NCBI RefSeq assembly: GCF_018417635.1 | Contig: NZ_CP071007.1 | Location: forward strand, 2,604,501 to 2,668,500 | Length of the DNA stretch: 64,000 bases | Source of the DNA: Pseudomonas sp. SORT22 | Lineage (GTDB): Bacteria > Pseudomonadota > Gammaproteobacteria > Pseudomonadales > Pseudomonadaceae | Direction: 5' to 3' | Notes under the pieces: generated by a model | Database searches by the model: none | The model's input: the letters and a program-made list of their open reading frames with translations, nothing else | Told to the model about the DNA's origin: nothing | In this document: one piece after another, positions 20,751-45,527 of the stretch | How positions within the stretch are numbered: position 1 is the stretch's first letter | Layout: every line of letters begins with the position of its first letter | Program-made: the position numbers and the translations under genes

Positions 20751-21304
20751 GTGCGGCCCTGCGTGAACGTTTGCTTTCAACGTATTGGGGGAAGTTGTTT
20801 AATGTTTTTTATTGTTTGTAGGAAGCATCTTTAATGTTTGCTTTTCAAACTTCTGTGTATCGCTCGGTCTGGGTTTATTGTTTTCGCCAGAGGGGCTGAA
20901 GCGTCAATGCAAATGTTTTGACAAGATGTAAGTTCGTATTTTATGGAGTCTGTATTCAGACGTGTTTGAGCGTGCTGCTGGTAGAGAACCGTGCGCAAAA
21001 GCAGCATCGTTCTCATCGCTGACGAAGGCCAGCTCGCCGGGCCAAAAAAAATATAGTGTTTACCCCCTCGCACCCGCTACCGCGCCTCGAAAAACACTGA
21101 TAGCATCCTGCCACTTACCTTGATTGCAGTTCGCGCATTTCATCGCGCATGTTCCCCGCTACTACACTTGCCATGCCACCTGTGCCTGGCACGTAGGGCG
21201 GTGCCTGGGTTGCCAGCCAGCGGCTGCTGACCAACGGTAATCAGGTTCGCGCCGCTGCAACCGATACACAACGCATACAACCAATAATGAAAGGATGCAG
21301 CGAG
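20751..21304. other. Divergent intergenic region, no gene seen
   Basis: This 554-base AT-rich region separates leftward tssF from the rightward adaptor operon, and must hold both promoters. Short open frames here have biased, coding-unlike sequence and no ribosome sites. I see no convincing promoter boxes, RNA or repeat. Confidence 0.5.
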
Positions 21305-22066
21305 ATGAAGCACGGAGCCTGGTGCCTGGCGTTGGTGATGGTCGCAAGCCTGGCGCAGGCGGCTGCCGACAGCGATCCGCTGCTCGAGGGCGCGACCTCG
21401 AGCGTCAGCGAAGTGCGCGGCGTGCTGCGCGCGCGCTCGCAGGCGGTGCTGGCCAGCGAGCTGGCCGGGCGGGTGGTGGACATGCCGTTCGCCGAAGGCC
21501 AGTCGTTCAGCAAGGGCGATGTGCTGGTGCGTTTTGATTGCAGCGCTTACCAGGCCCAGCAGAATGCCGCCGGCGCTGCCGTGCGTGCGGCCCGTGAAGA
21601 GCTGCGCAACAAGCAGCAACTGGCGGCGCTCAATTCGGTCGGGCGCTTCGAAGTGACCCTGGCCGAAGCGCGCCAGGCGCAGGCCCAGGCCGAGGCGCAG
21701 GTTTATCAGGTGCAGGTGCAGCGCTGCCAGGTCAAGGCCCCGTTCGACGGCCAGGTGGTTGCCCGTAAGGTCCAGGCCCACGAAAGCGTGGCCAGCGGCG
21801 CGCCGTTGCTGGAAATCGTCGACAACCGTTCGCTGGAGGTGCACCTGCTGGTGCCTTCGCGCTGGCTGGGCAAGCTCAAGCCGGAACAGACCTTCAGCTT
21901 CGTCCCCGATGAAACCGGCGCGCCGCTGCAGGCGGTGGTCAAGCGCCTGGGCGCGCGCATCGATGAAGGCAGCCAGACCCTGCTGCTGATCGGCACGCTG
22001 CCGGCCGACAGCCGCGGCCTGCTGGCCGGCATGAGCGGCACCGCGCACTTCGCCGGCCAGCCATGA
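21305..22066 (+). CDS. Periplasmic HlyD/RND-type adaptor protein
   Basis: A 253-residue membrane-fusion protein. A cleavable signal peptide (LALVMVASLAQAAA) is followed by a lipoyl-like half (LRARSQAVLASELAGRVVDMPF, GDVLVRFDCSAYQAQQ), a short alpha-hairpin (about 90-140), the second lipoyl half (KAPFDGQVVARKVQAHESV) and a beta-barrel. Such adaptors bridge an inner-membrane component and a TolC-type channel across the periplasm. The ATG at 21305 follows AAAGGA; an ATG six codons earlier is less likely. It overlaps the next gene by 4 bases and starts the cluster that ends in a TolC-like gene. Confidence 0.85.
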   Translation: MKHGAWCLALVMVASLAQAAADSDPLLEGATSSVSEVRGVLRARSQAVLASELAGRVVDMPFAEGQSFSKGDVLVRFDCSAYQAQQNAAGAAVRAAREELRNKQQLAALNSVGRFEVTLAEARQAQAQAEAQVYQVQVQRCQVKAPFDGQVVARKVQAHESVASGAPLLEIVDNRSLEVHLLVPSRWLGKLKPEQTFSFVPDETGAPLQAVVKRLGARIDEGSQTLLLIGTLPADSRGLLAGMSGTAHFAGQP

Positions 22067-23382
22067 ACGCGCCCGTAGCCAATGGCATGGAGCAGCTGCT
22101 GGCGCATTACCTGCGCCTGGAGCATCAGGCCCGCGCCGCGAGCACGGTCGAGGCGCTGGCCTTCAGCATGGTCAACGACCCCCAGCCGCTGTTCGCCTTT
22201 CGCCACGCGGCATTGCTGATTGCCGGCAAGGTGCGGGCGTTGACCGCGATCAGCATGGTCGAGGCGAACGCGCCGTTCGTGGCCTTCATCGAACATGCCG
22301 CCGCGCAACTGGGCAACAGTGCCCGCCTGGACACCAGCGGCCCGCTGAACCCGGACAGTTTCGATCAGGCCAGCCGCGATGACTGGCAGTCGTTGTCAGC
22401 TGCCCACGCCTTCTGGCTGCCGCTCAAGGACCGCCAGGGTGTGGTTTTTGGCGGTTTGTGGCTGGCCCGCGACAACCCTTGGGTCGAGGCCGAGCACAGC
22501 TTGCTCAACCACCTGGGCGAGTGTTACAGCCATGCCTGGCTGGCCTTGCAGCCGGGCAAACCATGGCGCCTGCGCTGGCCGGCACGCAGCCGCTGGGCGA
22601 TCGGCGCCGCAGCCCTGCTGGTGCTGCTGGTGCCGGTGCGCCAGTCGGTGTTGGCGCCGGCCGAAGTAGTGCCACGCAACGGCCAGGTGGTGGCCGCACC
22701 GCTGGATGGGGTGATCGCCGAGTTCCTGATCAAGCCCAACCAGGCGGTGCAGGCCGGGCAGGTGCTGGTGCGCTTCGACGCCACCAGCCTCAAGGCCCAG
22801 GCCGATGTTGCCGAGCGCACCCTCGGGGTCGCCGAGGCCGAGCTCAAGGCCAACACCCAGCGAGCCTTTTCCGATGCTGAATCCAGCGCCCGGCTTGACC
22901 TGCTGGCCGCCCGTGTCGAGCAGAAGCGCGCCGAGCGCGATTATACCCGCGAGCTGCTGGCGCGCGCCGATGTGCGTGCCGAGCGTGCCGGTATTGCCGT
23001 GTTCGCCGACGCCCAGCGCCTGACCGGTAAGCCATTGCAGACCGGCGAGCGTCTGCTGGAAATCGCCGACCCGGCCCAGGCCGAGCTGCGCATCGAGCTG
23101 CCGGTGGCCGATGCCTTGAGCCTTGAGCCTGGCGCCGAAGTGGCGCTGTTTCTCGACAGCGACCCGTTGCACCGTCATGGCGCCGAGCTCGAACGCGCCG
23201 CCTACGAAGCGCAGAACACTCCGGCCGGGCAACTGGCTTATCGCCTGGACGCACGCTTTACCGACGCGCCGCCGCGCATCGGCCTGCGTGGCACCGCCAA
23301 GCTGTTTGGCCAGCGTGCACCGCTGGCGCTGTACCTGCTGCGCCGGCCGTTGGCGGCCCTGCGCCAGACGGTGGGCCTTTGA
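22063..23382 (+). CDS. HlyD-type adaptor with N-terminal cytosolic sensor-like region
   Basis: A 439-residue protein. Residues 1-165 look like a cytosolic GAF-like domain (HAALLIAGKVRALTAISMV, FWLPLKDRQGVVFGGLWLA). A membrane helix follows (about 178-195, IGAAALLVLLVPV), then a HlyD-type adaptor (VPRNGQVVAAPLDGVIAEFL, QAGQVLVRFDATSLKAQAD, a helical hairpin, then a beta-barrel from about 310). The opening ATGA overlap and closing TGATG overlap show tight coupling with both neighbours. A sensor-like domain on a secretion adaptor is unusual and may gate transport; that role is inference. Confidence 0.8.
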   Translation: MNAPVANGMEQLLAHYLRLEHQARAASTVEALAFSMVNDPQPLFAFRHAALLIAGKVRALTAISMVEANAPFVAFIEHAAAQLGNSARLDTSGPLNPDSFDQASRDDWQSLSAAHAFWLPLKDRQGVVFGGLWLARDNPWVEAEHSLLNHLGECYSHAWLALQPGKPWRLRWPARSRWAIGAAALLVLLVPVRQSVLAPAEVVPRNGQVVAAPLDGVIAEFLIKPNQAVQAGQVLVRFDATSLKAQADVAERTLGVAEAELKANTQRAFSDAESSARLDLLAARVEQKRAERDYTRELLARADVRAERAGIAVFADAQRLTGKPLQTGERLLEIADPAQAELRIELPVADALSLEPGAEVALFLDSDPLHRHGAELERAAYEAQNTPAGQLAYRLDARFTDAPPRIGLRGTAKLFGQRAPLALYLLRRPLAALRQTVGL

Positions 23383-25478
23383 TGCTGCCGGCACTGCGCC
23401 CGGACCTGCAACTGTCGCCCGCCGCGCCAGGGCTGGACGGCGCTGCGCAATGGACCCTGGCCGACCCGCTGCGCGGGCGCTATTTCAAGCTCGGCGCGCC
23501 CGCCATGCGCCTGTTGCGGCACTGGGCGCTGGGCGATCCGGCGCGGGTGCTGGCCGCAGCCAATCGCGAACCGGGCATGCCGCTGCCGGGCACGGCCATT
23601 GAGGAGCTGTTGCGCTTTTTGCGTGGCCATGACCTGGTCACCGCCAGTGATGACGAGCAACGGGCCAGCTACGCCGACAAAGCCGCCCGCCAGCGACAGG
23701 GGCTGTGGACCCAGTTGCTGCACAAGTACCTGTTCTTTCGTATCCCGTTGTGGCGCCCGGATGCCTTTCTCAACCGTACCTGGCCGTGGCTGGCGCGGTT
23801 CGGCCCGAACCTGCTGCGCTACGGCCTGCCCACGGTACTGTGCCTGGGGCTGTTTCTGGTCATGCGCGACTGGCAGCGTTTTCTCGCAACCTTTCCCCAC
23901 CTGTTGAGCCTCGGCGGTGCTGCAGCCTTTGCCATCGCCCTGGGCTTTGCCAAGTTGTGCCACGAATTCGGCCACGCCTACATGGCCAAACGCGCCGGCT
24001 GCCGGGTGCCGAGCATGGGCCTGGCGTTCATGGTGCTGTTGCCGATGCTCTACACCGATGTCAGCGATGCCTGGCGCGTGCAGGACCGCCGCACCCGCCT
24101 GTTGATCGGCGCCGGCGGGGTGCTCGCCGAGTTGCTGCTGGCCTGCCTGGCCCTGCTGGCCTGGTCGCTGTTGCCGGACGGGGCAGGGCGCACGGCGGCG
24201 TTCATGCTGGCCAGCGCCACCTGGATCACCACCCTGGCGATCAACCTCAATCCGTTGATGCGCTTTGACGGCTACTTTCTGCTCAGCGACCTGTGGGCGG
24301 TTGACAACCTCCAGGGCCGGGCCTTCGCCCTGTGCCGCTGGCGCTTGCGCGAGGCGCTGTTCGGTTATGGCGAGGCGGCGCCCGAGCCGTGGTCGGCGGC
24401 CATGCGCCGGCGCTTGTTGAGCTGGGGTTACGCCGCCTGGCTGTGGCGCGCAGTGCTGTTTTTCGGCATCGCCCTGGCGGTGTATCACTTGTTTTTCAAG
24501 GCGCTGGGCATCTTTTTGATGCTGGTCGAGCTGACCTGGTTCATCGCCTTGCCGGTCTATAAGGAGGGCCAGCACTGGTGGCAGCAACGCCAGCGAGCGC
24601 AACCGCGCAAGGTGCTGGGCCTGGGCCTCGGCCTGCTGGCGGTGCTGCTGGTGCTGGTGTTGCCGTGGCGCAGCGATGTCGAGGTGCCGGCGCTGCTCGA
24701 AGCGTCGCGGGTCAGTGCCCTGCATGCACCGACCGCAGCGCGTATCCGCGAGGTGCATGTGCAGGACGGCCAGCGCGTGGCCCGCGATCAGTTGCTGGTG
24801 GTGCTGGAGTCACCGGACCTGGAATCGCGCCTGCAGATCGTACGGCGCGAAATCCAGATCCTGCAGCTGCAATTGCGTCGCCAGGCCGGGCGCAGTGAAA
24901 CCGCCGCCGACAGCGGCATCCTCGAGCAGCGCCTGGCCGAGGCGGTGGCCGAATACCGCGGCCTGGCCGCCCAGCGCGAGCGCCTGAACCTGCGCGCGCC
25001 GCACGCCGGGGTGATACGCGACCTGGCCGTGGGCCTGGCACCGGGCCGCTGGATTGCCGCGCAGTTGCCGCTGGCTGCAGTGGTCGAGGAGGGCCTGCGC
25101 CTGCGTGGTTACCTGGCCGAAGCGGACTTGTGGCGGGTCGAGGCCGGCGCGCCCGGGCATTTTGTTGCCGATGATCCGCTGCGCGATTCGCTGCGGGTCA
25201 GCCTCAGCGATATCGACACCACCGGGGTCAGCGCCATCGATCAGGAGGCGCTGGTTTCCGAGCACCAGGGCCCCATCGCCATCCGCCGCGACGAGAACCG
25301 CCGGGCGCAGCCGCTGCAGGGGCAATACGGCGTACGCTTTGCCCTCGAAAACAGCCCGCCTGGGGGCCTGCAACGCCCGGTTCGCGGGCTGGTGGTGCTC
25401 GAAGGCAAGGGCCAGTCGCTGCTGGCATCGGCATGGCGACGAATGGCCGCGCTGGGGGTAAGAGAAAGCGGATTTTGA
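23382..25478 (+). CDS. M50 zinc metalloprotease-like membrane protein fused to HlyD part
   Basis: A 698-residue multidomain membrane protein. Residues about 5-95 resemble a PqqD-like winged helix (LADPLRGRYFKLGAPAMRLL). A site-2-protease core follows, with zinc motif HEFGH at 194-198 in a membrane helix and the partner motif NLNPLMRFDGYF near 288-299. Several further membrane helices lead to a periplasmic HlyD-like tail (VSALHAPTAARIREVHVQDGQ, LRAPHAGVIRDLAVG) from about 440. Both zinc motifs look intact. In this cluster it takes the place where a type I system would have its ABC ATPase. It may process or translocate the giant adhesin; the mechanism is inferred. Confidence 0.85.
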   Translation: MLPALRPDLQLSPAAPGLDGAAQWTLADPLRGRYFKLGAPAMRLLRHWALGDPARVLAAANREPGMPLPGTAIEELLRFLRGHDLVTASDDEQRASYADKAARQRQGLWTQLLHKYLFFRIPLWRPDAFLNRTWPWLARFGPNLLRYGLPTVLCLGLFLVMRDWQRFLATFPHLLSLGGAAAFAIALGFAKLCHEFGHAYMAKRAGCRVPSMGLAFMVLLPMLYTDVSDAWRVQDRRTRLLIGAGGVLAELLLACLALLAWSLLPDGAGRTAAFMLASATWITTLAINLNPLMRFDGYFLLSDLWAVDNLQGRAFALCRWRLREALFGYGEAAPEPWSAAMRRRLLSWGYAAWLWRAVLFFGIALAVYHLFFKALGIFLMLVELTWFIALPVYKEGQHWWQQRQRAQPRKVLGLGLGLLAVLLVLVLPWRSDVEVPALLEASRVSALHAPTAARIREVHVQDGQRVARDQLLVVLESPDLESRLQIVRREIQILQLQLRRQAGRSETAADSGILEQRLAEAVAEYRGLAAQRERLNLRAPHAGVIRDLAVGLAPGRWIAAQLPLAAVVEEGLRLRGYLAEADLWRVEAGAPGHFVADDPLRDSLRVSLSDIDTTGVSAIDQEALVSEHQGPIAIRRDENRRAQPLQGQYGVRFALENSPPGGLQRPVRGLVVLEGKGQSLLASAWRRMAALGVRESGF

Positions 25479-25592
25479 TAGTGCGATTGTCAGACAATTA
25501 GAATAAAATGCCATCACAATGATCTCACGCCCGGCGTGGGGCATTGGGGCGGACGGATCAATGCTCAGCATCTCGCAGGGACGCTACACACG

Positions 25593-26096
25593 ATGAACCC
25601 ACTCGGTTTGAGTTTCCGCCCCATCGGCCAAGGCGACCTGCCTTTCCTTGAGCATTTGTACGCCACCACCCGCGCCGGCGAAATGCGCCACAGCGGCTGG
25701 TCGGCCGAGCAGATTGCGCAGTTTCTGCGCCAGCAATTCAATGCCCAGCACCAGTATTACCAGGCCCATTACCCGGACGGTGAGTTCCTCCTGGTCGAAC
25801 GCCAGGGCCAGGCCATCGGCCGCCTGTACCTGTTCTGGGGGCAGACTGCACTCAACCTCATCGATATCGCCTTGTTGCCCGCCTGCATTGGCCACGGCAC
25901 TGGCAGCGCCATTCTCGACGACTTACTGCGCCGCGCCGACCAGCGCGGGCTCGCCTGCGAGCTGTGTGTCGAGCACTACAATCCGGCGCAACGGCTGTAT
26001 GCAAGGCTTGGTTTTATCCCGGTCGGCGAGTCGGGGGTCTACCGCCGCCTGCGGCGTGAGCCGGTGCCTGGCTGCCTGATGGCGCAGGCCTCATGA
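25593..26096 (+). CDS. GNAT-family acetyltransferase
   Basis: A 167-residue N-acyltransferase. The fold is suggested by LSFRPIGQGDLPFLEHLYATT, the strand EFLLVERQGQAIGRLYLFW, the acetyl-CoA loop in IGHGTGSAILDDLLRRA and the C-terminal NPAQRLYARLGFIPVGESGVYRRL. The ATG at 25593 matches the family start; an open extension 19 codons upstream is not supported. It overlaps the DUF6916 gene by 4 bases. Its substrate is unknown; it may modify an operon partner. Confidence 0.85.
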   Translation: MNPLGLSFRPIGQGDLPFLEHLYATTRAGEMRHSGWSAEQIAQFLRQQFNAQHQYYQAHYPDGEFLLVERQGQAIGRLYLFWGQTALNLIDIALLPACIGHGTGSAILDDLLRRADQRGLACELCVEHYNPAQRLYARLGFIPVGESGVYRRLRREPVPGCLMAQAS

Positions 26097-26422
26097 GCGC
26101 CGCCGGCCAGTTCCCCATGCCCACCTTCGCCGAGCTGCAAGCGGCCGACCGCCATGCCTTTGCGCTCTGGCTGGGGCCGGAGCAGCGCGTAGCCGTCGAA
26201 CGCGTGCAACTGAGTGAGGGCGTGGCCATGAGCGCCCGCCACGAATGCTTCCTGGTGTTTTTCGCCTTGCCCGCCGGCCTGCTGCCGCAGCAGGGCGTGT
26301 ACCGCGTTATCGGTCCGCAGCAGCAGGAATGGTTGCTGCTGATGACCCCGGTGCAGCCCGAGCCCGATGGCCGCCATGTGCTGCAGGCGGTGCTGCACCG
26401 TGAGCGGGAGCCGCAGGCCTGA
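26093..26422 (+). CDS. DUF6916-like small protein
   Basis: A 109-residue protein with TFAELQAADRHAFALWLG, VQLSEGVAMSARHECFLVFF, GLLPQQGVYRVIG and LLLMTPVQPEPDGRHVLQAVLHR. The pattern resembles what I recall as DUF6916, a family often found beside phage-tail-collar (MdpB-like) proteins. It may be a small beta-sandwich carrier or chaperone. ATGA overlap with the GNAT gene indicates coupling. The function is unknown. Confidence 0.6.
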   Translation: MSAAGQFPMPTFAELQAADRHAFALWLGPEQRVAVERVQLSEGVAMSARHECFLVFFALPAGLLPQQGVYRVIGPQQQEWLLLMTPVQPEPDGRHVLQAVLHREREPQA

Positions 26423-26474
26423 GCGCCCTGAACTGATCTGTTCACACCCACAACCCAAAAACAGGTAATGCCAG

Positions 26475-27011
26475 ATGAGTGATCCCTTCCTCGGTGAGAT
26501 CAAGATGTTCGGTGGCAACTTTGCGCCCCGTGGTTATGCAATGTGCAGTGGGCAATTGATGGCGATATCGCAAAACGCCGCGCTGTTTTCGATCCTCGGC
26601 ACGATCTATGGCGGCGACGGCCGGGTCACCTTCGGCTTGCCCGACCTGCGCGGCCGCTCGCCCGTCGGTTGGGGCCAGGGCCCGGGCCTGGGTGAAGTCG
26701 ATCTCGGTGAAACGGGAGGTAGCCAGAACACTACGCTGACCGTGCAGCAAATGCCGATGCACAGCCATCCGCTAATGGTCTCGACGGAAGCTGCCGGCGC
26801 CGACAAGGGCACGGCAAGCCTGGTGCTGGCGCAGAGCGGCGATGCCAACCTGGGCACGGTCAACATCTATGGCAACCCCACGGCGCTGACCAACCTGGCA
26901 GCGCAAAGCTGTGGCGTTGCCGGTGGCAATCAGCCCTTCAACAACCTCAGCCCGTACCTGGGCCTGAGCATGATCATCGCCACCGAAGGCATCTTCCCTT
27001 CGCGCGGTTGA
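26475..27011 (+). CDS. Phage-tail-collar (MdpB-like) protein
   Basis: A 178-residue protein that begins DPFLGEIKMFGGNFAPRGYA and has FSILGTIYGGDGRVTFGLPD followed by LRGRSPVGWG, the hallmark of tail-collar domain proteins. The central region has QQMPMHSHPLM and the end NLSPYLGLSMIIA. Homologues occur in phage tail fibres and in chromosomal microcystin-dependent-protein families, where they often come in sets of three; only one is present here. Its place just before the giant adhesin suggests a surface or capping role, which is unproven. Confidence 0.88.
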   Translation: MSDPFLGEIKMFGGNFAPRGYAMCSGQLMAISQNAALFSILGTIYGGDGRVTFGLPDLRGRSPVGWGQGPGLGEVDLGETGGSQNTTLTVQQMPMHSHPLMVSTEAAGADKGTASLVLAQSGDANLGTVNIYGNPTALTNLAAQSCGVAGGNQPFNNLSPYLGLSMIIATEGIFPSRG

Positions 27012-27105
27012 TGAACCGGCGCGGTGGCGCGTGATGCGCGCCACCGCTGCCATAGCCGTTCCATAGCAGTTTTAGGGCAACAACCCGTACAGCCTGAGGT
27101 GCAAC

Positions 27106-30100
27106 ATGAAGTTCATCGACCGATTCAAACGCCAGGGCCGGCCAGTGCCCACCCCTGCCGTTCAGGCACCGCTGTTGTTTGCCCTGGAACCGCGGATCAT
27201 GTTCGACGCCTCGGTTGCGGTGGTTGCCCAGGAGGCAACTGCCGAGGCCGCCAAGGACACCGGCAAAGACAGCGCAAGCGATACCGCGCAGGCCGACAAG
27301 GCCGCGCTGGCCACGGCCGATACGCGTGGCGCCAGTGCCAGCGAACGCCATGAAGTGGTGTTTGTCGATGGCCAGATCAGCAACCCGCAGGAAGCCCTCA
27401 AGGGCCTGCCGGCGGGCAGTGAAGTGGTGGTGCTCGACCCGGGCAAGGACGGCCTGCAGCAAATGGCCGACTACCTCAAGGGCCGCAGCGACCTGGATGC
27501 CATCCATGTATTTTCCCACGGTGCGTCGGGTACCGTGCAGTTGGGCAATGTCTGGCTGAGCAGCAGCAACCTTGCCGATCACGGCGAGACGCTGCAGTCC
27601 ATCGGCCAGTCGCTCAAGGCCGACGGCGACCTGATGCTGTATGGCTGCCAGGTCGGCAAGGACGATGCTGGCCAGGCCTTTGTCAGCCAGCTGGCAAGCC
27701 TGACCGGTGCCGACATCGGCGCCTCCAGCGACGACACCGGTAGCGGTGCGCTGGGCGGCAACTGGACCCTGGAGCGCAGCAGCGGCCCGCTGGCAACCAC
27801 GGCCCTGGCGCTCAACGATTACCAGGAGCTGCTGGCCACCTCCTGGAGTACCGGCAGCGCGCCGCTGAGCGGCACCACCATCGCCGCCGGCAGCCGGGTG
27901 GTGGTGGGCGATTTCGACAACGACGGCGACGCCGACATCCTCTACCAGACCGGGGGCAATGGTACGCTCTGGGCATTTGCGCGCAGCAACGGCAACGGCA
28001 GCTTCACCCTGCAAAGCCTGGCGCAGTCGCCCTTTGCCGGGTTGTCGCTGCCGGACCATACCGGCTCCAACTACCACGTTGCCGACTTCGATGGCGACGG
28101 CGACCTCGATGTGCTGGCCGGGGTCAACGGCACTACCGGCACCTACCTGCGCAACGACGGCGGCAGTTTCAGCAGCCAGTCGACGGCAAGCTTCCCGGCG
28201 CCAGCGGCCGGCTCACGGATGCTCGCCGCTGACTTCGACAACGATGGCGACGCCGACCTGCTGTACCAGACCGGCGCCAACGGCACCGGCTTCGCCTATG
28301 CGCGCAGCAACGGCAACGGCACCTTTACCTTGTTGACCCTGGCGCAATCACCCTTTGCCGGGTTGACGCTGCCGGACCACAACGGCAGCAACTACTACGC
28401 CGCCGACATCGACGGCGACGGTGACATCGACGTACTGGCCGGCAGTAACGCCACCACCGGGGTCTACCTGCGCAATGACGGCGCCTCCTTCAGCAGCCAG
28501 TCAACCGCCTCGTTCCCGGCCCCGGCAGCGTTCGGCCGCATGGTGCTGGCCGACTTCGACAGCGATGGCGATGCCGACATCCTCTACCAGACTGGCGGCA
28601 ACGGCACAGCCTTCGCCTATGCGCGCAGCAACGGCGACGGCACCTTCACCCTGCAGACCCTGGCCCAGTCGCCGCTGGCCGGCCTGAGCCTGGTCGATCA
28701 TACCGGCACCACCTATCGCGCCGCCGACTTCGACGGCGACGGCGATATCGACCTGTATGGTGGGTTCAACGGCACCGCCGGCAACCTGTATGTACAGAAC
28801 GACCGCCCACCGATCGTGGTCAGCTCGACGCCCAGCGACAACGCCAGCAACGTCGACACCAACGCCAACATCGTGCTGACCTTCAACGAAGCGGTGAGCA
28901 AGGGTAGCAGCGGCAACATCTACATCGTGCGCACCTTCGACAATGTCGTGGTCCAGACCATCGCCATTGGCAGTGCGCAGATCAGCGGCTCCGGCACCAC
29001 CTGGACCATCGCCCTGCCGGTCCCCCTGGCACTGGGCACCGGCTATGCCATCCGCCTGGACGCCAAGACCTTCGTCGATGGCGATGGCGCGATCTTCAAG
29101 GGGGTGAAGAACAACACCACGCTGAACTTCACCACCAAGTCCAATGACCCGCCGGTGCTGAGCAACCTCAATGGCGACAGCAACACCTTTATCGAGGGTG
29201 GGGCGCCGGTGCTGCTCGATGCCGGCGGCAATGCGCTGCTCACCGACCTGGACTCGGCGGACTTCAACGGCGGCAACGTCACTGTGGCGATCACCGCCAA
29301 CCGGGTCAGCGGCGAAGACCTGCTGGGGATCTTCAACCAGGGCAGCGGGGCCGGGCAGATCGGTGTCTCGGGCAGCAACGTGACTTATGCCGGGGTGATC
29401 ATCGGCAGCTTTGCCGGCGGCAGCGCCAGCAGCAACCTGGTGATCTCGCTCAACAGCAACGCGACCGCCGCTGCGGTGCAGGCGCTGGTGCGCAACCTGA
29501 CCTACAGCAACAGCAACAATGGCGATATCTCAACCGCGGCGCGTACGGTGCAGGTCAGCATCAACGATGGCGACAGCGCCAGCGACGCCAGCGCCCTGGT
29601 CAGCGTCAATGTCAGCGCGGTCAACGATGCACCGACGGTAACCGCCAGCGGCGGCACCCCGACCTTCACCGAAGGTGGCGCGCCGGTCGACCTGTTCAGC
29701 GCGGTGGTGGTGTCTACCGTCGAGGCCGGGCAGGGCATCAAGCAGCTGACCTTCACCGTCAGCAATGTCAGTGATCCCGGCAACGAGCGCCTGACCCTCG
29801 ACGGCAGCAACATCGACCTGGTCAACGGCGCCTCGGGCACCACGGCCATCAACGGCTTCAGCTATTCGGTGACGCTCAGCGGCGCGACCGCGACGGTGAC
29901 CCTGACCAAGGCCGCCGGCATCAGCAGCGGCCTGACCCAGACGCTGATCGATGGCGTGCAATACAGCAACCTCAGCCATGCGCCGACAATCGGCACCCGG
30001 GTGATCACCTTGAGCGGCGTGGCGGACACCGGCGGCACCGGCAATGGCGGTGCCGACAGCACTTCGCTGGCCATCAGCGCAACGGTCACGGTGCAGGCCA

Positions 30101-33100
30101 GCAACGATGCGCCCAGCCTCTCGGGCGGGCCGTTCGTGCTGCCGGGCACCGATGAAGACAGCAGCTCCAGCGGCCAGCTGATTGCAAGCATTCTTGCCGG
30201 GCTGAGCCATGGCGATGTCGACGGCGCCGGTTCGCTGAGCGGCGTCGCCGTGATCGGCAGCAGCGGTAATGGCTTCTGGCAGTACTCCAGCGACGGATTC
30301 AGTTGGGCCGACATCGGCGCGGTCTCCAGCAGCGCCGGCCTGCTGCTGTCGAGCACCACGCAAGTGCGTTTCGTCCCCGATGGCGCCAATGCCGGTAGCG
30401 CCAGCCTGACCTTACGGGCCTGGGACCAGACCAGCGGCACGGCCTCCAGCAACTCAGTACGCCGCACTGGCGACACCACCATTAACGGCGGCAGCAGCAG
30501 CTTCTCGGTCGGCACCGCGCAGGCGCAGATCACAATCAGCGCGGTCAACGACGCGCCGCTGCTGACCCCGACTGCACCGGTGCTCATCGGCATCACTGAT
30601 GGCCAGCTGAACAACCCCGGGCAAACCGTTGCCAGCTTCCTCAGTGGCGTAACCGATGTCGACACCGGCGCCCTTGTCGGTATCGCCATCACCGGCCTGA
30701 ACAGCGGCACCGGCACCTGGCAGTACAGCACCGATGGCAGCACCTGGAGCGATATCGGCGCCGTGGCCGGCAACAGCGCCTTGCTGCTGCGCGGTAGCGA
30801 CAAGCTGCGCCTGGTGCCCGACGGCGCCCACGCCATGGTGGCAACCCTGACCTACAAGGCCTGGGACCAGACTGGCGCCTCGGCAGGGCAGCAGGGCAGC
30901 AAGGTCGACACCACGGCCAGCGGCGCCAGCACGGCGTTTTCCATCGCCAGCGACACTGCCAGCATCACCGTCACGGCGGTCAATGACGCGCCGAACCTGA
31001 GCACCAGCGCTGGCAGCGCGCACTTCGTCGAGGGCAACAACGGCCCCTCGACCCCGGTAGTCATCGACAGCGGCCTGACCCTGAGCGATTCCGACAACAG
31101 CACCCTGGCCAGCGCCAGGGTCAGCATTATCGGTAATTTCCAGGGCGGTTTCGACGTGCTGGCATTTACCAACAACCCGGCAACCATGGGCAACATCAGC
31201 GCCAGCTACGACGTTTCCACCGGCGTGCTGACCCTGACCTCCGCAGGCGCCGCTGCCACCCTTGCGCAGTGGCAGGCGGCATTGGCCTCGGTGACCTTCA
31301 GCAACCAGAGCGAATCGCCCAGCACGGCTACCCGGACCCTGAGTTTCGTGGTCAACGACGGCACCCTGGACAGCCCGGCCGCGACGCGCACCTTGACCGT
31401 GGCGACAGTAGACGACACGCCGGTGATCGCCACCAGCGGCGGCAGCGAAACCTACTTCGAGAACGCAGGGCCCGTGGCAATCGACAGCGGGCTGACGCTC
31501 AGCGACATCGACAGCAACACCCTGGCCAGCGCTACCATCAGCATCACCGGCAACTTCCGCGCCGGCCAGGATGTACTGGAGTTCAGCTCCGGTTCGCCGA
31601 TTACGGGCAACATCAACGCCAGTTACAACGCCGCGACCGGCGTCCTGACCCTGACGTCGGCGGGGGCCACCGCGACCCTTTGGCAGTGGCAGGTCGCCCT
31701 GCAATCGGTGGGCTATCGCAACGTTTCCGACAACCCCGACACCTCGACGCGCACCGTGTCGTTCTCGGTCAATGACGGCAACAGCGACAGCGCCGTCGCC
31801 AGCAAGGCCGTCAACATCCAGGCCGTCAACGACGCCGGGATCCTCAGCGTACCGAGCAGCCTGAACTTCAATGAAGATGCTTCTGGCACGGTGTCGGGCA
31901 TTTCCATCAGCGATGCCGATGCCGGCAGCGGGCAGGTCACCCTGACCCTGAGCGTGGCGCTGGGCCAACTGCACGCCAACAGTGGCGCCGGCGTCACGGT
32001 CAACACGCTGGGCAGCGGTCTGATACTGGTCGGCTCGGTATCGGACATCAACGCCTTTATCGCCGCCAACGGGGTCTCCTACATCGGCGCCGCCAACGGC
32101 AACGGCAACGTCAACCTGACGGTGACCTACAACGATGGCGGCAACACGGGCAGCGGCGGGGCGCAGCTCACTCAGCGGGTGGTGACACTGGCCATTGGTG
32201 CGGTCAACGATGCGCCGGTCAACCAGGTACCGAGTAGCCAGAACGTCCTTCAGGACGGCTCGCTGACCTTCAACAACGGCAACGGCAACCTGATCAGCAT
32301 CAGCGATGTTGACGCCGGCAGCGCCGCCTTGCAGGTGACCTTGACCGCCAGCAATGGCCTGCTGACGCTGTCGAGCCTCAGCGGCCTGGTGTTTACCGTC
32401 GGCAGCGGCACGGGCGATGCGAGCATGACCTTCACCGGCTCGCAAAGCGATATCAATGCCGCGCTCAACGGCCTGGTGTTCTCCCCGGTGGCCGGCTACC
32501 ACGGTTCGGCCAGCCTGCAGATCACCACCAGCGACCTGGGCGGCAGCGGCAGCGGCGGGGCGCAGACCGACACCGACACCGTTAGCATCAACGTCGCCTC
32601 GTTGAACCCGCGGGTTACCGATGTCTCGGCGCAGAGCGCCAATGGCAGCTACAAGACCGGCGACAGCATTACCCTGACCCTGACCTTCGACCAGATGGTC
32701 AGCGTCGACACCACTGGCGGCATCCCGGCCTTGCTGCTGGAAACCGGCCTTATCGATCGCTATGCCACCTATGTGGCCGGCTCGGGCACTAACACCCTGA
32801 CGTTCCAGTACACCGTGCAGGCCGGTGATACCAGCGCCGACCTCGACTACGCCGGCAGCGCCGCCCTGGCCCTCAATGGTGCAGTGATTCGCAACGCCAC
32901 CTTCGACAATGCCGTTTTGACATTGCCAACGCCGGGCTCCGCCCATTCGCTGGGGGCCAACCACAACCTGGTCATCGACGGCATCGCGCCGCAGGTTACC
33001 AGTGTCAGCGTGCCGGCCAATGGCACCTACGTCGCCGGCCAGCAGCTGGACTTCACCGTCAACCTCAGCGAGGCAGTGACGGTGACCGGTACACCGCGCC

Positions 33101-36100
33101 TGCAGATCACCCTGGACACTGGCGGCACCGTGTTCGCCGATTACCTTTCCGGCTCCGGGACCGGCGCGCTGGTATTCCGCCTGACGGTCAGCAGCGGTCA
33201 GCTCGATAGCAACGGCATCACCCTTGGCAGCAACCTGGTGCTCAACGGCGGATCGGTTCGCGACCAGGCCGGCAATCTGGCAGGCGCGACACTCAACAAC
33301 GTCGGCAGCACCACGGGCGTCAATGTCGATGCCGTGGCGCCGGTTATCGGCAGCGTCGCGGTACCGGCTGCGGGCAGCTACAAGGCCGGCGACGTGCTGA
33401 GCTTCACCGTCAACGCCAGCGAAGCGCTGATCGTCGATACCTCCACCGGTACGCCGCGCCTGCAACTGACCATTGGCGGGCTGAGCCGCTATGCCAGCTA
33501 TGTGTCCGGCTCCGGTAGCGGCCAGTTGCTGTTCCAGTACAGTGTCGATGCCGGCGTCAACGATGCCGACGGCATTCAGCTCGGCAGCACCCTGGACCTC
33601 AACGGTGGTACGCTGCGCGACGCCGCCGGCAACGGCCTGGTGCTGGCCCTCAATGGCCTGGGCAGTACCGCCGGCGTGCTGGTCGATACCCTGGCACCCA
33701 GCGCTGGAGCGCTGCTGGCCATCGATGCCAGCCCGAGCAATGCCGGCAGCGTGCGCTACAACTTGACCTTCAGCGAAGCGGTCAGCGGTGTCGATGCCAG
33801 CGACTTCAGCCTGGTGTTCAGTGGCACGGCCAACGGCAGCATCAGCAGCGTCACCTCGCTGGACGGGCGCACCTACAGCGTACTGGTGTCCGGCCTGAGC
33901 GGCGTTGGCAGCCTGCGCCTGGACCTCAACAGCAGCGCCACCGGCATCAGCGACGCGGCCGGCAACAGCCTGAGCAATGGGCAGAGCGGCGCCAGCTACC
34001 AGATCGACCGGGTGGCACCGACGGTCAACAGCGTTACGGTGCCGGCCAACGGCAACTATGTCGCTGGCCAGCACCTGGACTTTACCGTCAACCTCAGCGA
34101 GGCGGTGATGGTCACCGGTACACCGCGCCTGCAAATCACCCTCGACACTGGCGGCACAGTGTTTGCTGATTATCTGTCCGGCTCTGGCACTGGCGCGCTG
34201 GTGTTCCGCCTGACGGTCAGCAACGGCCAGCTCGACAGCACCGGCATCAGCCTGGGCAGCGGCCTGGTGCTCAATGGCGGTGCACTGCGCGACAGCGTTG
34301 GCAATGACGCGCTGATCAGCCTCAACAACGTCGCCAGCACCAGTGGCGTACTGGTCGACGCTGTGCTGCCGACGGTGGCCAGCGTGTCGGTACCGGCAGC
34401 AGGCAGCTACAACGCTGGCGACGTGCTGAGCTTCACGGTCAACGCCAGTGAAGCGCTGATCGTCGATACCTCTGCCGGCACGCCGCGCCTGCAGCTGACT
34501 ATTGGCGGGCTGACCCGCTATGCCAGCTATGTGTCCGGCTCTGGTAGCGGCCAGTTGGTGTTCCAGTACAGCGTGCAAGCCGGTAACAACGATGCCGATG
34601 GCATCCAGGTCGGCAGCACCCTGGATCTGAACGGTGGCACAGTGCGCGATGCGGCAGGCAACCCCCTTAACCTGGGCCTGAACGGTCTCGCCAGCACCAC
34701 AGGGGTGCGTATCGATACCGCAGCGCCACAAGTGGCGGATATCGTTCGCGTCGATGTCAGCCCGAGCAACAGCGGTTCGCTGCGCTACACCGTGAGCTTC
34801 GACGAGAGCGTCAGCGGCGTTGACCTGGCCGACTTCAGCCTGGCGTTCAGCGCCAGCGCCAGCGGGCGGATCAGCAGCGTGACGCAGCTTGACGGGCGCA
34901 CCTACAGCGTCCTGGTCGACAACCTCAGCGGTGTCGGCACCCTGCGCCTGGACCTGAATCCGACCGGCACCGGCATCACCGATGCGGCCGGCAACGCCCT
35001 TGCAGGGGGCCTGCAAGGCAGCAGCTACAGTATCGACCGCGTGGCGCCAAGCGTGACTGCGGTGGCGGTGCCGGCGGCGGGCAGTTATGTCGCCGGGCAG
35101 GGGCTGGAGTTCAGCGTGCAGCTGGACGAAGCGGTGCTGGTCGATACCGCCGCTGGCGCGCCGCGCCTGGCGGTCACCCTGGACAATGGCCGGGTGGTGT
35201 ATGCCGATTACGTTTCCGGCTCCGGCAGCAACACCCTGGTGTTCCGCCTGACCATCAGCCCGGGCCTGCAGGCCAGCAATGGCCTGAGCGTGGCGCCGAG
35301 CCTGGACCTTAATGGCAGCACCGTGCGTGATGCACGCGGCAACGATGCCGGCACCGGCCTGAGCAACGTCGCCAGCACCGCCGGCATCCTCGTCGATGCC
35401 CGGGCACCGCGGCCTGCCGAGATCGCCGTGCAAACTCCGGCAACGCCCGGCGAGCGGACGCTGAGCTACACCTTGAGCTTTGACGAGGCGGTCAGCGGCG
35501 TCGATGCCGCTGACTTCAGCGTGCTGTCCAGCGGCAGCGCCACGGGGGTGGTGCAGTCGGTGCAGCAACTGGATGCGCGTACCTACCGGGTAACCCTGGG
35601 CAGTATCAGCGGCCAGGGCGGCCTGGGGCTGAGCCTCAACGCGCTGAACAGCGGCATCCGCGACGGCGCCGGCAATGCCCTGGCGGTGTCGATGAGCAGC
35701 CCGCTGTATCAGTTGCCGAACCAGGATGTCGGCGATCTCGAATTCCGGGTCAATCCGCCCGTCAGCAACCCGGCGGTGAGCGTACCGCTGCTGCAGCCAC
35801 AAGTTCCGCAGTTGCCGTCGGTTGCCAGCACGTCGCCGATGCTGCCCGCGCCGCTGTTCGAGGAGCGCACGCTGGGCAGTGGCATCGACACCCTGGGCAG
35901 CATTTTCATTCACAACGGTCTCAGCGCGCCGAGCTTCATCGCCCAGGTATTTGCCAGCAGCGATGGCAGCGGCGACGGATCGGGGCAGGGCTTTCTCGGT
36001 TTTGGCGGCGGTGATGGGGGCGTGTTCGGCACCAGTACCTTTGCCGCCCTGTTTGCCCGCGAGGCGGCGCCGGAGGGCGAGTCGATGCGGGTTTTCGACG

Positions 36101-36264
36101 GCAAGCAGTGGCGCACCACCGACCCTGCCCAAGGCTTGCGCGCAGTGTTTGGCGCCGCCTCGCTGGAGCAGCAGTTGCAGGACATCAAGGACGCCGAACA
36201 GCGTCCCGTACGCGAATTGGCCATGGCTCTGGCACAGCCGACACAGATCGGCAACCGGACCTGA
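27106..36264 (+). CDS. Giant repeat adhesin with LEPR-type N-terminus and DUF4347 domain
   Basis: A 3052-residue predicted surface protein. Residues 27-35 (LEPRIMFDA) match the LEPR-XLL type N-terminal motif of very long repetitive proteins; there is no ordinary Sec signal. Residues about 81-243 are a DUF4347 domain with SHG (His138) and GC (Cys181), positions expected for a caspase-like dyad. FG-GAP-like calcium repeats follow (DFDNDGDADILYQTG and similar, about 250-560), then an Ig-like domain, then cadherin-like repeats each ending VNDAP or a variant (about 690-1830), then alternating Ig-like modules of about 115 residues (1835-2880) and a glycine-rich tail. No RTX nonapeptides are present. 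GAGGTG precedes the ATG. The TolC-like gene follows. Confidence 0.9.
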   Translation: MKFIDRFKRQGRPVPTPAVQAPLLFALEPRIMFDASVAVVAQEATAEAAKDTGKDSASDTAQADKAALATADTRGASASERHEVVFVDGQISNPQEALKGLPAGSEVVVLDPGKDGLQQMADYLKGRSDLDAIHVFSHGASGTVQLGNVWLSSSNLADHGETLQSIGQSLKADGDLMLYGCQVGKDDAGQAFVSQLASLTGADIGASSDDTGSGALGGNWTLERSSGPLATTALALNDYQELLATSWSTGSAPLSGTTIAAGSRVVVGDFDNDGDADILYQTGGNGTLWAFARSNGNGSFTLQSLAQSPFAGLSLPDHTGSNYHVADFDGDGDLDVLAGVNGTTGTYLRNDGGSFSSQSTASFPAPAAGSRMLAADFDNDGDADLLYQTGANGTGFAYARSNGNGTFTLLTLAQSPFAGLTLPDHNGSNYYAADIDGDGDIDVLAGSNATTGVYLRNDGASFSSQSTASFPAPAAFGRMVLADFDSDGDADILYQTGGNGTAFAYARSNGDGTFTLQTLAQSPLAGLSLVDHTGTTYRAADFDGDGDIDLYGGFNGTAGNLYVQNDRPPIVVSSTPSDNASNVDTNANIVLTFNEAVSKGSSGNIYIVRTFDNVVVQTIAIGSAQISGSGTTWTIALPVPLALGTGYAIRLDAKTFVDGDGAIFKGVKNNTTLNFTTKSNDPPVLSNLNGDSNTFIEGGAPVLLDAGGNALLTDLDSADFNGGNVTVAITANRVSGEDLLGIFNQGSGAGQIGVSGSNVTYAGVIIGSFAGGSASSNLVISLNSNATAAAVQALVRNLTYSNSNNGDISTAARTVQVSINDGDSASDASALVSVNVSAVNDAPTVTASGGTPTFTEGGAPVDLFSAVVVSTVEAGQGIKQLTFTVSNVSDPGNERLTLDGSNIDLVNGASGTTAINGFSYSVTLSGATATVTLTKAAGISSGLTQTLIDGVQYSNLSHAPTIGTRVITLSGVADTGGTGNGGADSTSLAISATVTVQASNDAPSLSGGPFVLPGTDEDSSSSGQLIASILAGLSHGDVDGAGSLSGVAVIGSSGNGFWQYSSDGFSWADIGAVSSSAGLLLSSTTQVRFVPDGANAGSASLTLRAWDQTSGTASSNSVRRTGDTTINGGSSSFSVGTAQAQITISAVNDAPLLTPTAPVLIGITDGQLNNPGQTVASFLSGVTDVDTGALVGIAITGLNSGTGTWQYSTDGSTWSDIGAVAGNSALLLRGSDKLRLVPDGAHAMVATLTYKAWDQTGASAGQQGSKVDTTASGASTAFSIASDTASITVTAVNDAPNLSTSAGSAHFVEGNNGPSTPVVIDSGLTLSDSDNSTLASARVSIIGNFQGGFDVLAFTNNPATMGNISASYDVSTGVLTLTSAGAAATLAQWQAALASVTFSNQSESPSTATRTLSFVVNDGTLDSPAATRTLTVATVDDTPVIATSGGSETYFENAGPVAIDSGLTLSDIDSNTLASATISITGNFRAGQDVLEFSSGSPITGNINASYNAATGVLTLTSAGATATLWQWQVALQSVGYRNVSDNPDTSTRTVSFSVNDGNSDSAVASKAVNIQAVNDAGILSVPSSLNFNEDASGTVSGISISDADAGSGQVTLTLSVALGQLHANSGAGVTVNTLGSGLILVGSVSDINAFIAANGVSYIGAANGNGNVNLTVTYNDGGNTGSGGAQLTQRVVTLAIGAVNDAPVNQVPSSQNVLQDGSLTFNNGNGNLISISDVDAGSAALQVTLTASNGLLTLSSLSGLVFTVGSGTGDASMTFTGSQSDINAALNGLVFSPVAGYHGSASLQITTSDLGGSGSGGAQTDTDTVSINVASLNPRVTDVSAQSANGSYKTGDSITLTLTFDQMVSVDTTGGIPALLLETGLIDRYATYVAGSGTNTLTFQYTVQAGDTSADLDYAGSAALALNGAVIRNATFDNAVLTLPTPGSAHSLGANHNLVIDGIAPQVTSVSVPANGTYVAGQQLDFTVNLSEAVTVTGTPRLQITLDTGGTVFADYLSGSGTGALVFRLTVSSGQLDSNGITLGSNLVLNGGSVRDQAGNLAGATLNNVGSTTGVNVDAVAPVIGSVAVPAAGSYKAGDVLSFTVNASEALIVDTSTGTPRLQLTIGGLSRYASYVSGSGSGQLLFQYSVDAGVNDADGIQLGSTLDLNGGTLRDAAGNGLVLALNGLGSTAGVLVDTLAPSAGALLAIDASPSNAGSVRYNLTFSEAVSGVDASDFSLVFSGTANGSISSVTSLDGRTYSVLVSGLSGVGSLRLDLNSSATGISDAAGNSLSNGQSGASYQIDRVAPTVNSVTVPANGNYVAGQHLDFTVNLSEAVMVTGTPRLQITLDTGGTVFADYLSGSGTGALVFRLTVSNGQLDSTGISLGSGLVLNGGALRDSVGNDALISLNNVASTSGVLVDAVLPTVASVSVPAAGSYNAGDVLSFTVNASEALIVDTSAGTPRLQLTIGGLTRYASYVSGSGSGQLVFQYSVQAGNNDADGIQVGSTLDLNGGTVRDAAGNPLNLGLNGLASTTGVRIDTAAPQVADIVRVDVSPSNSGSLRYTVSFDESVSGVDLADFSLAFSASASGRISSVTQLDGRTYSVLVDNLSGVGTLRLDLNPTGTGITDAAGNALAGGLQGSSYSIDRVAPSVTAVAVPAAGSYVAGQGLEFSVQLDEAVLVDTAAGAPRLAVTLDNGRVVYADYVSGSGSNTLVFRLTISPGLQASNGLSVAPSLDLNGSTVRDARGNDAGTGLSNVASTAGILVDARAPRPAEIAVQTPATPGERTLSYTLSFDEAVSGVDAADFSVLSSGSATGVVQSVQQLDARTYRVTLGSISGQGGLGLSLNALNSGIRDGAGNALAVSMSSPLYQLPNQDVGDLEFRVNPPVSNPAVSVPLLQPQVPQLPSVASTSPMLPAPLFEERTLGSGIDTLGSIFIHNGLSAPSFIAQVFASSDGSGDGSGQGFLGFGGGDGGVFGTSTFAALFAREAAPEGESMRVFDGKQWRTTDPAQGLRAVFGAASLEQQLQDIKDAEQRPVRELAMALAQPTQIGNRT
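33011..35068. repeat. Two 1029-base super-repeats inside the giant adhesin
   Basis: A unit of three Ig-like modules is repeated in register: the string TGCCGGCCAA starts at 33011 and again at 34040, and a related start is at 35069, so the period is exactly 1029 bases (343 codons). The modules can be called A (VAGQ-LDFTVNLSEAV), B (AGDVLSFTVNASEAL) and C (FSEAVSGVDASDFSL). The order over the region is B A B C A B C A C. High DNA identity makes unit gain and loss likely. Confidence 0.75.
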
Positions 36265-36317
36265 AACGCCAGCACTTATTCAGAGATGATCGAGCCGTAC
36301 CAGGGGGCGGCCCAAGG

Positions 36318-37793
36318 ATGAAAAAAAGTCAGAAACTGTTCAGCGCCAGCTTGCTGGCGCTGGCAATCAGCGGATGTGCGGTTACCAGCGAACCGATCGA
36401 GCGCAGCATCAGCGAGGAGCGCGCGCGCACCGACCTGGTCAGTATGTTCAAGGACCAGGAGCCGCTCAACGGCCCGCTGACCCTGCACCAGGCCATGGCC
36501 CGGGCGGTCAAGTACAACCTCGAATCACGCCTTAAGGTCATGGAAGAAGCCCTGGCCAAGCGCCAGGTCGACCTGGCGCGCTTCGACATGCTGCCACGCA
36601 TGGCCATGGAAGCCGGCTACGCCGGGCGCAACAATGTCAGCGCTTCGAGCAGCCAGAGCGTGCAGACCGGCACCCAGTCCCTGGAGCCGTCGACCTCCCA
36701 GGACCGCGACCGTGAAGTGGCGGACCTGACCATGGTCTGGAACGTCCTGGATTTCGGTGTCAGCTACGTCAGTGCCAAGCAGCAGGCCGACCAGCGCCTG
36801 ATCCTCCAGGAACGGCGCCGCAAGGTCATCCACACCATCACCCAGGACGTGCGCTCGGCCTATTGGCGGGCGGTCGCGGCGCAGCGCCTGCTGACCCAGA
36901 TCGACAGCCTGATGGGCCGCGTGGCCCAGGCCCGGGACAACAGCCAGCACATGAGCAGCCAGCGCATTGGCGACCCGGTGCAGTCGCTCAGCTACCAGCG
37001 TGCGTTGATCGAGGCGACCCGCCAGCTCGAAGAGCAGCGCCGCGCGCTGTCGCTGGCCAAGACTGAACTGGCGGCGCTGATCAACCTGCCGCTGAACACC
37101 GACTTCAGCCTGGCGCCGGAAGAGGGCTACACGGTGCCGCAGTTCAAGGGCGACTTCACGCGCCTGGAGCAACAGGCCCTGGCCAGCCGTCCGGAACTGC
37201 GCGAGCAGGACTACCAGGCGCGGATCAGTGCCGCCGAAACCCGCAAGGCCATGCTGCGCCTGCTGCCGGGGCTGGAGTTCTCGGCCGGCGGGCACTACGA
37301 CAGCAACTCCTTCCTGGTCAACCAGAGCTGGGCGGATTACGGCGTCAAGGTGACCTGGAACCTGTTCAACGTGCTTTCGGCCCCGGCGGCCATCAAGGTC
37401 GCCAAGGCCGGCGAAGACGTCGCGGCGGCGCGCCGCCAGGCGATGTCGATGGCGGTGCTGGCACAGTTGTACGTGGCCAACGCCAACTACAACGAGGCCG
37501 CGCGGCAGTTTCGCACCAGCGAAGAGCTGGCGGCACTGGACGGGCAGATCGCCGAGCAACTGCGCAACCGCTACCAGACCCAGAACATTGGTGAGCTGGA
37601 GCTGATCCAGGGCGAGCTGAACAACCTGCAGACACAGTTGAAGCGCGACCTGTCGTATGCCGAATTGCGTAATGCCTATGCGCAGTTGTACGTCAGCTCC
37701 GGTACCGACCTGTTGCCGGACACCCTGCCGGACGGCAAGTTGGCGACCATTGCCTCGGCGCTACAAAACAGCGAGGCGCGCTGGGCACAGTGA
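36318..37793 (+). CDS. TolC-family outer-membrane channel lipoprotein
   Basis: A 491-residue outer-membrane efflux protein. The N-terminus is a lipoprotein signal (LLALAISGC, modified Cys20). Two efflux-protein repeats follow, with long helices (LTLHQAMARAVKYNLESRLKV; LIEATRQLEEQRRALSLAKTELAALINLP; SRPELREQDYQARISAAETRKA). It should form the trimeric channel for the cluster's adaptors. The ATG at 36318 is chosen because it starts a proper signal peptide and follows AGGGGGCGG. It lies 53 bases after the adhesin. A convergent hydrolase gene ends 15 bases further on. Confidence 0.9.
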   Translation: MKKSQKLFSASLLALAISGCAVTSEPIERSISEERARTDLVSMFKDQEPLNGPLTLHQAMARAVKYNLESRLKVMEEALAKRQVDLARFDMLPRMAMEAGYAGRNNVSASSSQSVQTGTQSLEPSTSQDRDREVADLTMVWNVLDFGVSYVSAKQQADQRLILQERRRKVIHTITQDVRSAYWRAVAAQRLLTQIDSLMGRVAQARDNSQHMSSQRIGDPVQSLSYQRALIEATRQLEEQRRALSLAKTELAALINLPLNTDFSLAPEEGYTVPQFKGDFTRLEQQALASRPELREQDYQARISAAETRKAMLRLLPGLEFSAGGHYDSNSFLVNQSWADYGVKVTWNLFNVLSAPAAIKVAKAGEDVAAARRQAMSMAVLAQLYVANANYNEAARQFRTSEELAALDGQIAEQLRNRYQTQNIGELELIQGELNNLQTQLKRDLSYAELRNAYAQLYVSSGTDLLPDTLPDGKLATIASALQNSEARWAQ

Positions 37794-45296: not shown

Positions 45297-45527
45297 CGTG
45301 GGTCCTTGAATTGATGTCGACATCCTTGCCGTTGATTGGGGTAGCGCCCTGAGCCTGAGCCTGAGGCTGCAGGGGACGCGTCAGGGGAATCTAGGTGGGT
45401 GGGGCTTCGTGCCTCAAGAGACGAGATGGAAATCAGACACGTCCTATATAGCTCTTTGCCTTTGTCTGTCAGATATGTCGGATGAGATCTGGATTTTGTT
45501 GACTAGGGGCTGTTTCTTTTACGGGCA

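Follow-up and report, generated by a model that had tools for sequence, protein, structure and literature searches.

How can a giant adhesin reach the cell surface when the genes next to its own encode adaptors and an outer membrane channel of the type I secretion kind and no ATP-binding cassette (ABC) transporter? This question is raised by a gene cluster at positions 21305 to 37793 of a 64,000-nucleotide stretch of Pseudomonas sp. SORT22 DNA (C1:2604501-2668500), and this whole stretch, here called the window, is the reference for all coordinates of the cluster. Two HlyD-type adaptors, a fusion protein of an M50 protease and a HlyD arm, a TolC-type lipoprotein, and a repeat adhesin of 3,052 residues are encoded there. 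The best explanation, to which a probability of about 60% was assigned from sequence and structure comparisons, is that of an export system that works without an ABC transporter and is dedicated to a giant adhesin with an N-terminal LEPR motif. Taken alone, the statement that the adhesin would leave the cell by a dedicated route without an ABC transporter is quite probable.

All open reading frames (ORFs) of the cluster are on the plus strand, at the positions given in a preliminary description of the locus, with stop/start overlaps at 22063/22066, 23379/23382, and 26093/26096, and the Pfam and TIGR matches confirmed the five main products named there. Adaptor 1 scored 126.8 bits with RND_mfp (TIGR01730, cut-off 94.9). 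The alignment of adaptor 2 (A6) matched the GAF-HlyD adaptors of a sister class, introduced below, with an hhalign probability of 99.8, and GAF was detected in the sister-class adaptor of locus L147. The M50 protein reached 31.9 bits with Peptidase_M50 (cut-off 27.2) and was also above the cut-off for HlyD_3. The residues H195, E196, G198, and H199 were invariant in 38 of the 38 M50 proteins in alignment A1, as were N289, P292, D297, and G298, and the window protein has the HExxH and NxxP...DG motifs of a site-2 protease in its membrane core. The likely start of the TolC-type protein is the ATG at 36318, which yields 491 residues with the lipobox LAISGC and is preferred over a frame of 561 residues. 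The adhesin contains DUF4347, six FG-GAP_3 stretches, and Big_5; no RTX or hemolysin-type repeat of Pfam was found in it at E ≤ 0.01, as had been stated before.

To judge whether these genes belong together, the best 80 of 282 close relatives found in named genomes were kept (L013 to L092). Both adaptors and the M50 gene were present in one locus in 80 of 80, and the N-terminus of an adhesin was found at 77, downstream in 73 and upstream in 4. These numbers mean that the genes are not neighbors by chance. The giant gene was frequently truncated at the edge of the fetched DNA, and TolC was visible in 33 of the 80 loci; in 46 of the 47 others, the adhesin frame reached the end of the fetched DNA, which would hide any TolC gene, with L023 as the exception. 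Beyond close relatives, 299 Pseudomonadota genomes were sampled, and the M50-HlyD profile A1 had matches (E ≤ 1e-20) in 86 of them; at most three M50 and four SecA candidates were scored per genome in these searches, so that copy numbers are lower bounds. Forty neighborhoods, hand-picked for long contigs and variety, were fetched, and 30 of them belonged to the class of the window (“TolC-linked”). Within up to 20 kb of DNA each, 27 of these 30 had adaptor 1 and 27 had adaptor 2, the two occurring together in 26; TolC was present in 23. The co-occurrence of the M50-HlyD fusion, adaptors, TolC, and adhesin that was to be expected from the preliminary description was thus found.

The set is also carried by plasmids of alpha-, beta-, and gammaproteobacteria. 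The order adhesin, TolC, adaptor 1, adaptor 2, M50 is that of plasmids from Kosakonia, Azospirillum, Escherichia coli, Burkholderia, and Variovorax, and an Eleftheria plasmid has the same genes in another order. The genome of the window possesses a second, diverged copy (C1:2095505-2112508; L093, L095) with 36% identity of the M50 protein and an adhesin frame of its own with a LEPR motif and 3,768 codons. The M50 gene of NZ_CP104683.1 was matched in 24 of 5,426 complete E. coli genomes, at 21 places on a plasmid and 4 on the chromosome; this record (L098, L104) is an E. coli plasmid of the IncF type that carries the set together with an adhesin of 4,457 residues.

The absence of an ABC transporter was upheld for the window, inside which no ABC_tran match was found. 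The genome has 102 such matches (150 of 176 candidates scored). The distance to the nearest good ones is about 151 kb (2453238) and 112 kb (2780717), and a partial match of 26.8 bits is located at 2508703. A consistently linked ABC exporter, the finding named in the preliminary description as decisive against its idea, did not appear. With eight ABC proteins from the genome of the window as queries, an ABC gene was located in 7 of the 80 close loci, each time 4.5 kb or more away from where M50 starts, and 7 of the 30 phylum-wide loci contained one, numbers close to chance by our estimate that about 3 in 10 such windows hold an ABC gene. ABC genes are therefore not enriched near M50, because about 100 ABC matches per 5.8-Mb genome predict similar counts.

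The feature that connects the giant proteins is a short motif near the N-terminus. The window adhesin matched the NCBIfam model LEPR-XLL (NF012209) at residues 23 to 44 with 18.8 bits (cut-off 17), and the model matched 42 of 49 aligned adhesin starts at E ≤ 5. The pattern L[ES][PAS]R[MIV][MLI]FD fitted 76 of 77 adhesin starts, the remaining one, L077, having no N-terminus in view. The adhesin alignment A2 was selected by the motif pattern, so that its invariant LE.R..FD is partly due to construction; controls picked by composition are free of this effect. When giants were chosen by composition alone and a looser motif (LExRxxFD) was sought in the first 160 residues, it was present in 86 of 92 repeat-rich giants at M50 loci. 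Two of the six misses, L032 and L035, were LEPR proteins with an upstream-extended frame and the motif further in, bringing the total to 88 of 92, and the other four (L013, L128, L133, and L139) were other proteins as judged from their starts. The same motif occurred in 2 of 1,627 other ORF segments of at least 300 residues, both being truncated adhesins, and in 0 of 11 giants from 20 stretches around LssB-type ABC exporters, these 11 coming from six genomes in which M50 matches occur as well. The chance rate at this composition was 0.00055 per start. A Variovorax adhesin gene of 48.7 kb (CP063167.1, 19413-68132; L102, L105), encoding about 16,200 residues with the start LEARYMFD, adjoins the same five-gene set.

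The substrates of L101, L116, and L118 have the motif without a detected DUF4347, and the motif is the more constant feature for this reason. M50 and DUF4347 co-occurred in 71 of the 299 genomes, against 15, 13, and 200 for the other combinations, a comparison uncorrected for relatedness. DUF4347 is predicted to adopt a clan CD caspase-like fold with a His-Cys dyad (H138, C181).

The preliminary description had proposed that the M50 protein, with adaptors and TolC, recognizes, cleaves, and passes the adhesin to the surface. The co-occurrence gives strong support to a single dedicated pathway of M50, adaptors, TolC, and adhesin; that the M50 protein recognizes, cleaves, and passes on the adhesin is what we infer, and this idea became more concrete because of a PqqD-like domain on the M50 protein and the near-constant motif at the N-terminus of the substrate. 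Homology of the M50 N-terminus to PqqD was reached via the sister class (hhalign of A1 against A4, probability 100), in which PqqD was above the cut-off in 2 of 2 M50 proteins scanned.

This sister class comprises 10 M50 proteins split from the 38 of the window's class by a branch with support 100/100. On a Pontibrevibacter plasmid, the order is a LEPR-XLL giant (a gene of 31.8 kb), DUF3467, a GAF-HlyD adaptor, PqqD-M50-HlyD, a “DEAD/DEAH box helicase,” and an RND adaptor; the small DUF3467 protein lies between the giant and the GAF-HlyD adaptor at L147 6617-6898. The annotated helicase (L147 10893-12878) is a SecA paralogue with 323.7 bits for SecA_DEAD and 175.4 bits for P-loop_SecA, and its TGEGKT and DEAD residues were invariant in 8 of 8 paralogues. 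The paralogue profile of 669 positions matched solved SecA chains over residues 15 to 605 with 656 bits. Most of these chains extend by about 170 residues or more past the match, indicating that the paralogue is truncated C-terminally; the helical wing and the two-helix finger belong to this C-terminal part of SecA. Among the matches listed for the 299 genomes, 47 sister-class M50 matches had 450 bits or more, and 38 of them were immediately followed by a paralogue gene. Vice versa, 41 paralogue matches had 600 bits or more, and 38 of these came immediately after a sister-class M50 gene; of the three others, G014:C25 adjoins a further M50 match. The other SecA matches listed had at most 565 bits and longer frames, like housekeeping SecA. 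No SecA paralogue was found in L010 to L092, and the genome of the window has a single SecA match, of the housekeeping type, whereas the sister class has a second SecA. Sister-class giants with the start in view have the motifs LEDRILLS (L114), LEPRLLFS (L135), LEPRVLLN (L192), and MEPRVLLS (L178); the large protein of L133 has another start, and several sister-class giants are cut.

Binding, threading, cleavage, and energy use, every step of which we infer, might proceed as follows. The M50 protein would span the cytosol with the PqqD-like reader, the membrane with the site-2 protease core, and the periplasm with the HlyD arm, so that together with the two adaptors and TolC a single path from the cytosol to the outside may be formed. 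The PqqD-like domain may bind the N-terminal LExRxxFD segment, for which the motif would be the natural address. The adhesin chain would be threaded outward with the N-terminus first, as the SecA-type motor of the sister class suggests, and the M50 site may trim or free its N-terminal segment. The caspase-like DUF4347 might later process, anchor, or free the adhesin. In the sister class, the truncated SecA paralogue encoded beside M50 would supply the driving force, and export there is probably driven by SecA. For the window's class, the housekeeping SecA would be the foremost candidate for a borrowed motor, a tentative assignment, although the adhesin starts lack a strong hydrophobic core. 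At a similarly tentative level, the two classes may represent an undescribed secretion system of the Pseudomonadota, in which a SecA-type motor would act together with a PqqD/M50/HlyD membrane receptor, two adaptors, and a TolC-type channel. Such a system would need no ABC transporter to export cargo that is read by its LEPR motif and ranges in size from about 1,460 to about 16,200 residues, and the truncated SecA may push this cargo through M50-HlyD instead of SecYEG.

The SecA paralogue may also be read as pointing to Sec-type transport across the inner membrane, and adaptor 1 is periplasmic and of the RND type. Both would agree with a two-step export, in which the adhesin would cross the inner membrane through SecYEG, and its processing and its transfer from the periplasm over the outer membrane would be all that M50, the adaptors, and TolC contribute. 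The best hydrophobicity over 12 residues was on average 1.47 in adhesin starts, 1.88 in adaptor 1, and 0.88 in GNAT, and a value of 2.0 was reached by 0 of 76 adhesin starts, 9 of 29 adaptor 1 starts, and 0 of 37 GNAT starts, which argues against two-step export, albeit as a weak test since few adaptor 1 starts pass. The SecA paralogue ends before the C-terminal part of SecA, and a cytosolic PqqD-like domain would be needless for a purely periplasmic step, so that two-step export is considered unlikely.

Several observations weigh against the dedicated ABC-free system. The gene set of the window's class encodes no motor, and a direct Pfam match to PqqD was found neither in the window M50 protein nor in the 38 class members. 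On a Phyllobacterium plasmid, M50 is accompanied by adaptor 2, neither TolC nor adaptor 1 is annotated, the LEPR motif is absent from the large protein neighboring its M50, and a type I ABC/HlyD pair is located 3 to 5 kb away on the other strand. No adaptors are visible beside the M50 genes of L127 and L128, adaptor 2 is missing from L112, and no giant was found for L141/L191. Finally, a type I ABC exporter was above the cut-off in 43 of 55 genomes, which were chosen by us for strong M50 matches and a completeness of at least 90%: the LssB type in 32, and 11 of the remaining 23 with PrtD (6) or HlyB (6).

These exporters, and the fact that the adaptors and TolC are of the type I or efflux kind, would agree with an ordinary type I system using an ABC transporter encoded elsewhere, with M50 as an added processing protease; a conserved C-terminal segment in Pseudomonas-type and enterobacterial adhesins could be a type I signal. 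Against it, 12 of the 55 genomes had no type I ABC above the three model cut-offs. Some of these came close (G045, 667.8 versus 725.55 bits), and five were clearly without (G023, G298, G213, G064, and G088), having no PrtD at 1e-80 and at most 373 bits with the HlyB model; they matched LssB below the cut-off, as did all 14 control genomes. Adaptors, M50, TolC, and a LEPR giant were present in four of the five (L143; L116; L110 with L181; L111 with L182), the set being counted only in these four, whose loci were read, and not in G088. This weakens the alternative without closing it, as draft genomes may lack genes. Moreover, the giants adjacent to LssB-type exporters have another N-terminus, and the set moves on plasmids without an ABC gene in the operon. 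Of five plasmid records searched, the one from Kosakonia gave a partial 25-bit match only and that from Burkholderia one below the cut-off, leaving both without any full ABC domain, and the other three carry full ABC domains elsewhere on the plasmid. An ABC transporter acting in trans is thus regarded as improbable.

A peptide maturation system of the kind used for ribosomally synthesized and posttranslationally modified peptides (RiPPs), or an efflux system, with the giant gene as a mere neighbor is very improbable: the M50 protein matched the daptide protease model NF041824 with 137.5 bits (cut-off 300) and the LiaK M50 model with 21.6 bits (cut-off 225), and PqqD-like domains usually bind peptide leaders, but the giant gene is linked up- or downstream across the classes and one motif is common to the giants.

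Features of the cluster in the window. “Basis” lists the supporting matches or alternative starts.
Feature	Position	Strand	Basis
Adaptor 1, periplasmic RND-type membrane-fusion protein	21305..22066	+	TIGR01730, HlyD_3, HlyD_D23; ORF open from ATG 21287
Adaptor 2: GAF-like N-terminal region, one likely transmembrane segment, HlyD arm	22063..23382	+	HlyD_3 above cut-off
PqqD-like/M50 site-2 protease/HlyD fusion, 699 residues	23379..25478	+	Pfam, alignment A1, AF2 model, fold comparison; start TTG 23379 or ATG 23382
PqqD-like region of M50 protein, about residues 23-86	23445..23636	+	hhalign A1 vs A4, probability 100
HEFGH zinc motif of M50 protein, residues 195-199	23961..23975	+	
NLNPLMRFDG, second catalytic motif of M50 protein, residues 289-298	24243..24272	+	
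GNAT acetyltransferase, accessory	25536..26096	+	Acetyltransf_1
DUF6916 protein, accessory	26093..26422	+	PF21880
Phage tail-collar domain protein, accessory	26475..27011	+	PF07484
Giant LEPR/DUF4347 repeat adhesin, 3,052 residues, likely substrate	27106..36264	+	
LEPRIMFD motif of adhesin, residues 27-34, likely export address	27184..27207	+	NCBIfam LEPR-XLL
DUF4347 domain of adhesin, residues 84-242; H138, C181	27355..27831	+	Predicted caspase-like fold
TolC-type outer membrane lipoprotein, 491 residues	36318..37793	+	OEP 138.6 bits; lipobox LAISGC

The cluster is a clean unit. On its left side, separated by about 500 bases, are genes of the type VI secretion system (T6SS) type on the opposite strand, for TssF (18972-20780), VgrG (15956-18673), and RHS (11365-15969), and on its right side a gene for an FSH1-type hydrolase runs in the opposite direction. 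A DUF2169 gene at 44097-45323 on the minus strand further places the cluster between T6SS-like genes. The nearest named relatives are from Pseudomonas, with P. rubra at 93%; on the P. rubra contig (L013, 11301-12543), the adhesin and the GNAT and Collar genes seem to be missing between M50 and TolC, which may reflect a true deletion or an artifact of assembly. The GNAT, DUF6916, and tail-collar genes had been said to travel with the cluster, which was the case in 46, 32, and 64 of the 80 close loci, respectively. A place in the core is not supported for them, and they are sorted as accessory because the annotation of the Azospirillum, E. coli, Variovorax, and Eleftheria plasmids shows none of them in the cluster. 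Tail-collar genes (in the window and in L096 and L099) occur in one to three copies beside many such adhesin genes.

Three findings go beyond the preliminary description: the LEPR motif shared by the giants, the caspase-like fold predicted for DUF4347, and a sister class linked to SecA. If the proposed system is real, this would mean a further route by which Gram-negative bacteria display giant adhesins, a site-2 protease acting within an export machine, and a role for the LEPR-XLL motif, for DUF4347, and for a SecA paralogue labeled as a helicase in a public record; clusters annotated as “efflux” or “HlyD family” would need renaming.

No description of this assembly, of the motif link, or of the SecA link was found in searches of an open-access library, and papers elsewhere are possible; PMC6963963, PMC12310338, and PMC12153261 are about the MRP adhesin or an ABC-type system. 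In LapA-type type I secretion (ABC transporter LapB, an adaptor, and TolC-like LapE; MRP in Pectobacterium), as in the cluster, one locus encodes a giant repeat adhesin together with a HlyD-type adaptor and a TolC-type channel. The cluster has no ABC gene, and RTX repeats, common but not universal in type I secretion, are likewise absent; the LEPR motif replaces the LapA-type start of the giants next to LssB exporters, and the M50 fusion and the second adaptor are additional. The M50 proteases PqqD/M50 of RiPP systems (daptide; YydH/LiaK) have the M50 core in common with the fusion protein, which differs by its score below the daptide cut-off, its fused HlyD arm, and the linkage to a giant adhesin. 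Tce1 (PA0256) is a putative cysteine protease effector of a T6SS, whereas the domain here is the N-terminal part of an adhesin and not T6SS cargo. The window adhesin qualifies as a LEPR-XLL protein; that model describes the motif only, and the link to M50-HlyD and SecA is added here. Accessory Sec systems are of the SecA2 type, and the sister class likewise possesses a SecA paralogue which, judged by gene linkage, is dedicated to giant proteins of the surface type. In contrast to accessory Sec, this paralogue is shorter than SecA, its partners are M50-HlyD and adaptors, and the window's class has no paralogue. The parts are known; what would be new is their assembly and its links to the motif and to SecA, as a proposed system with export deduced from the sequences.

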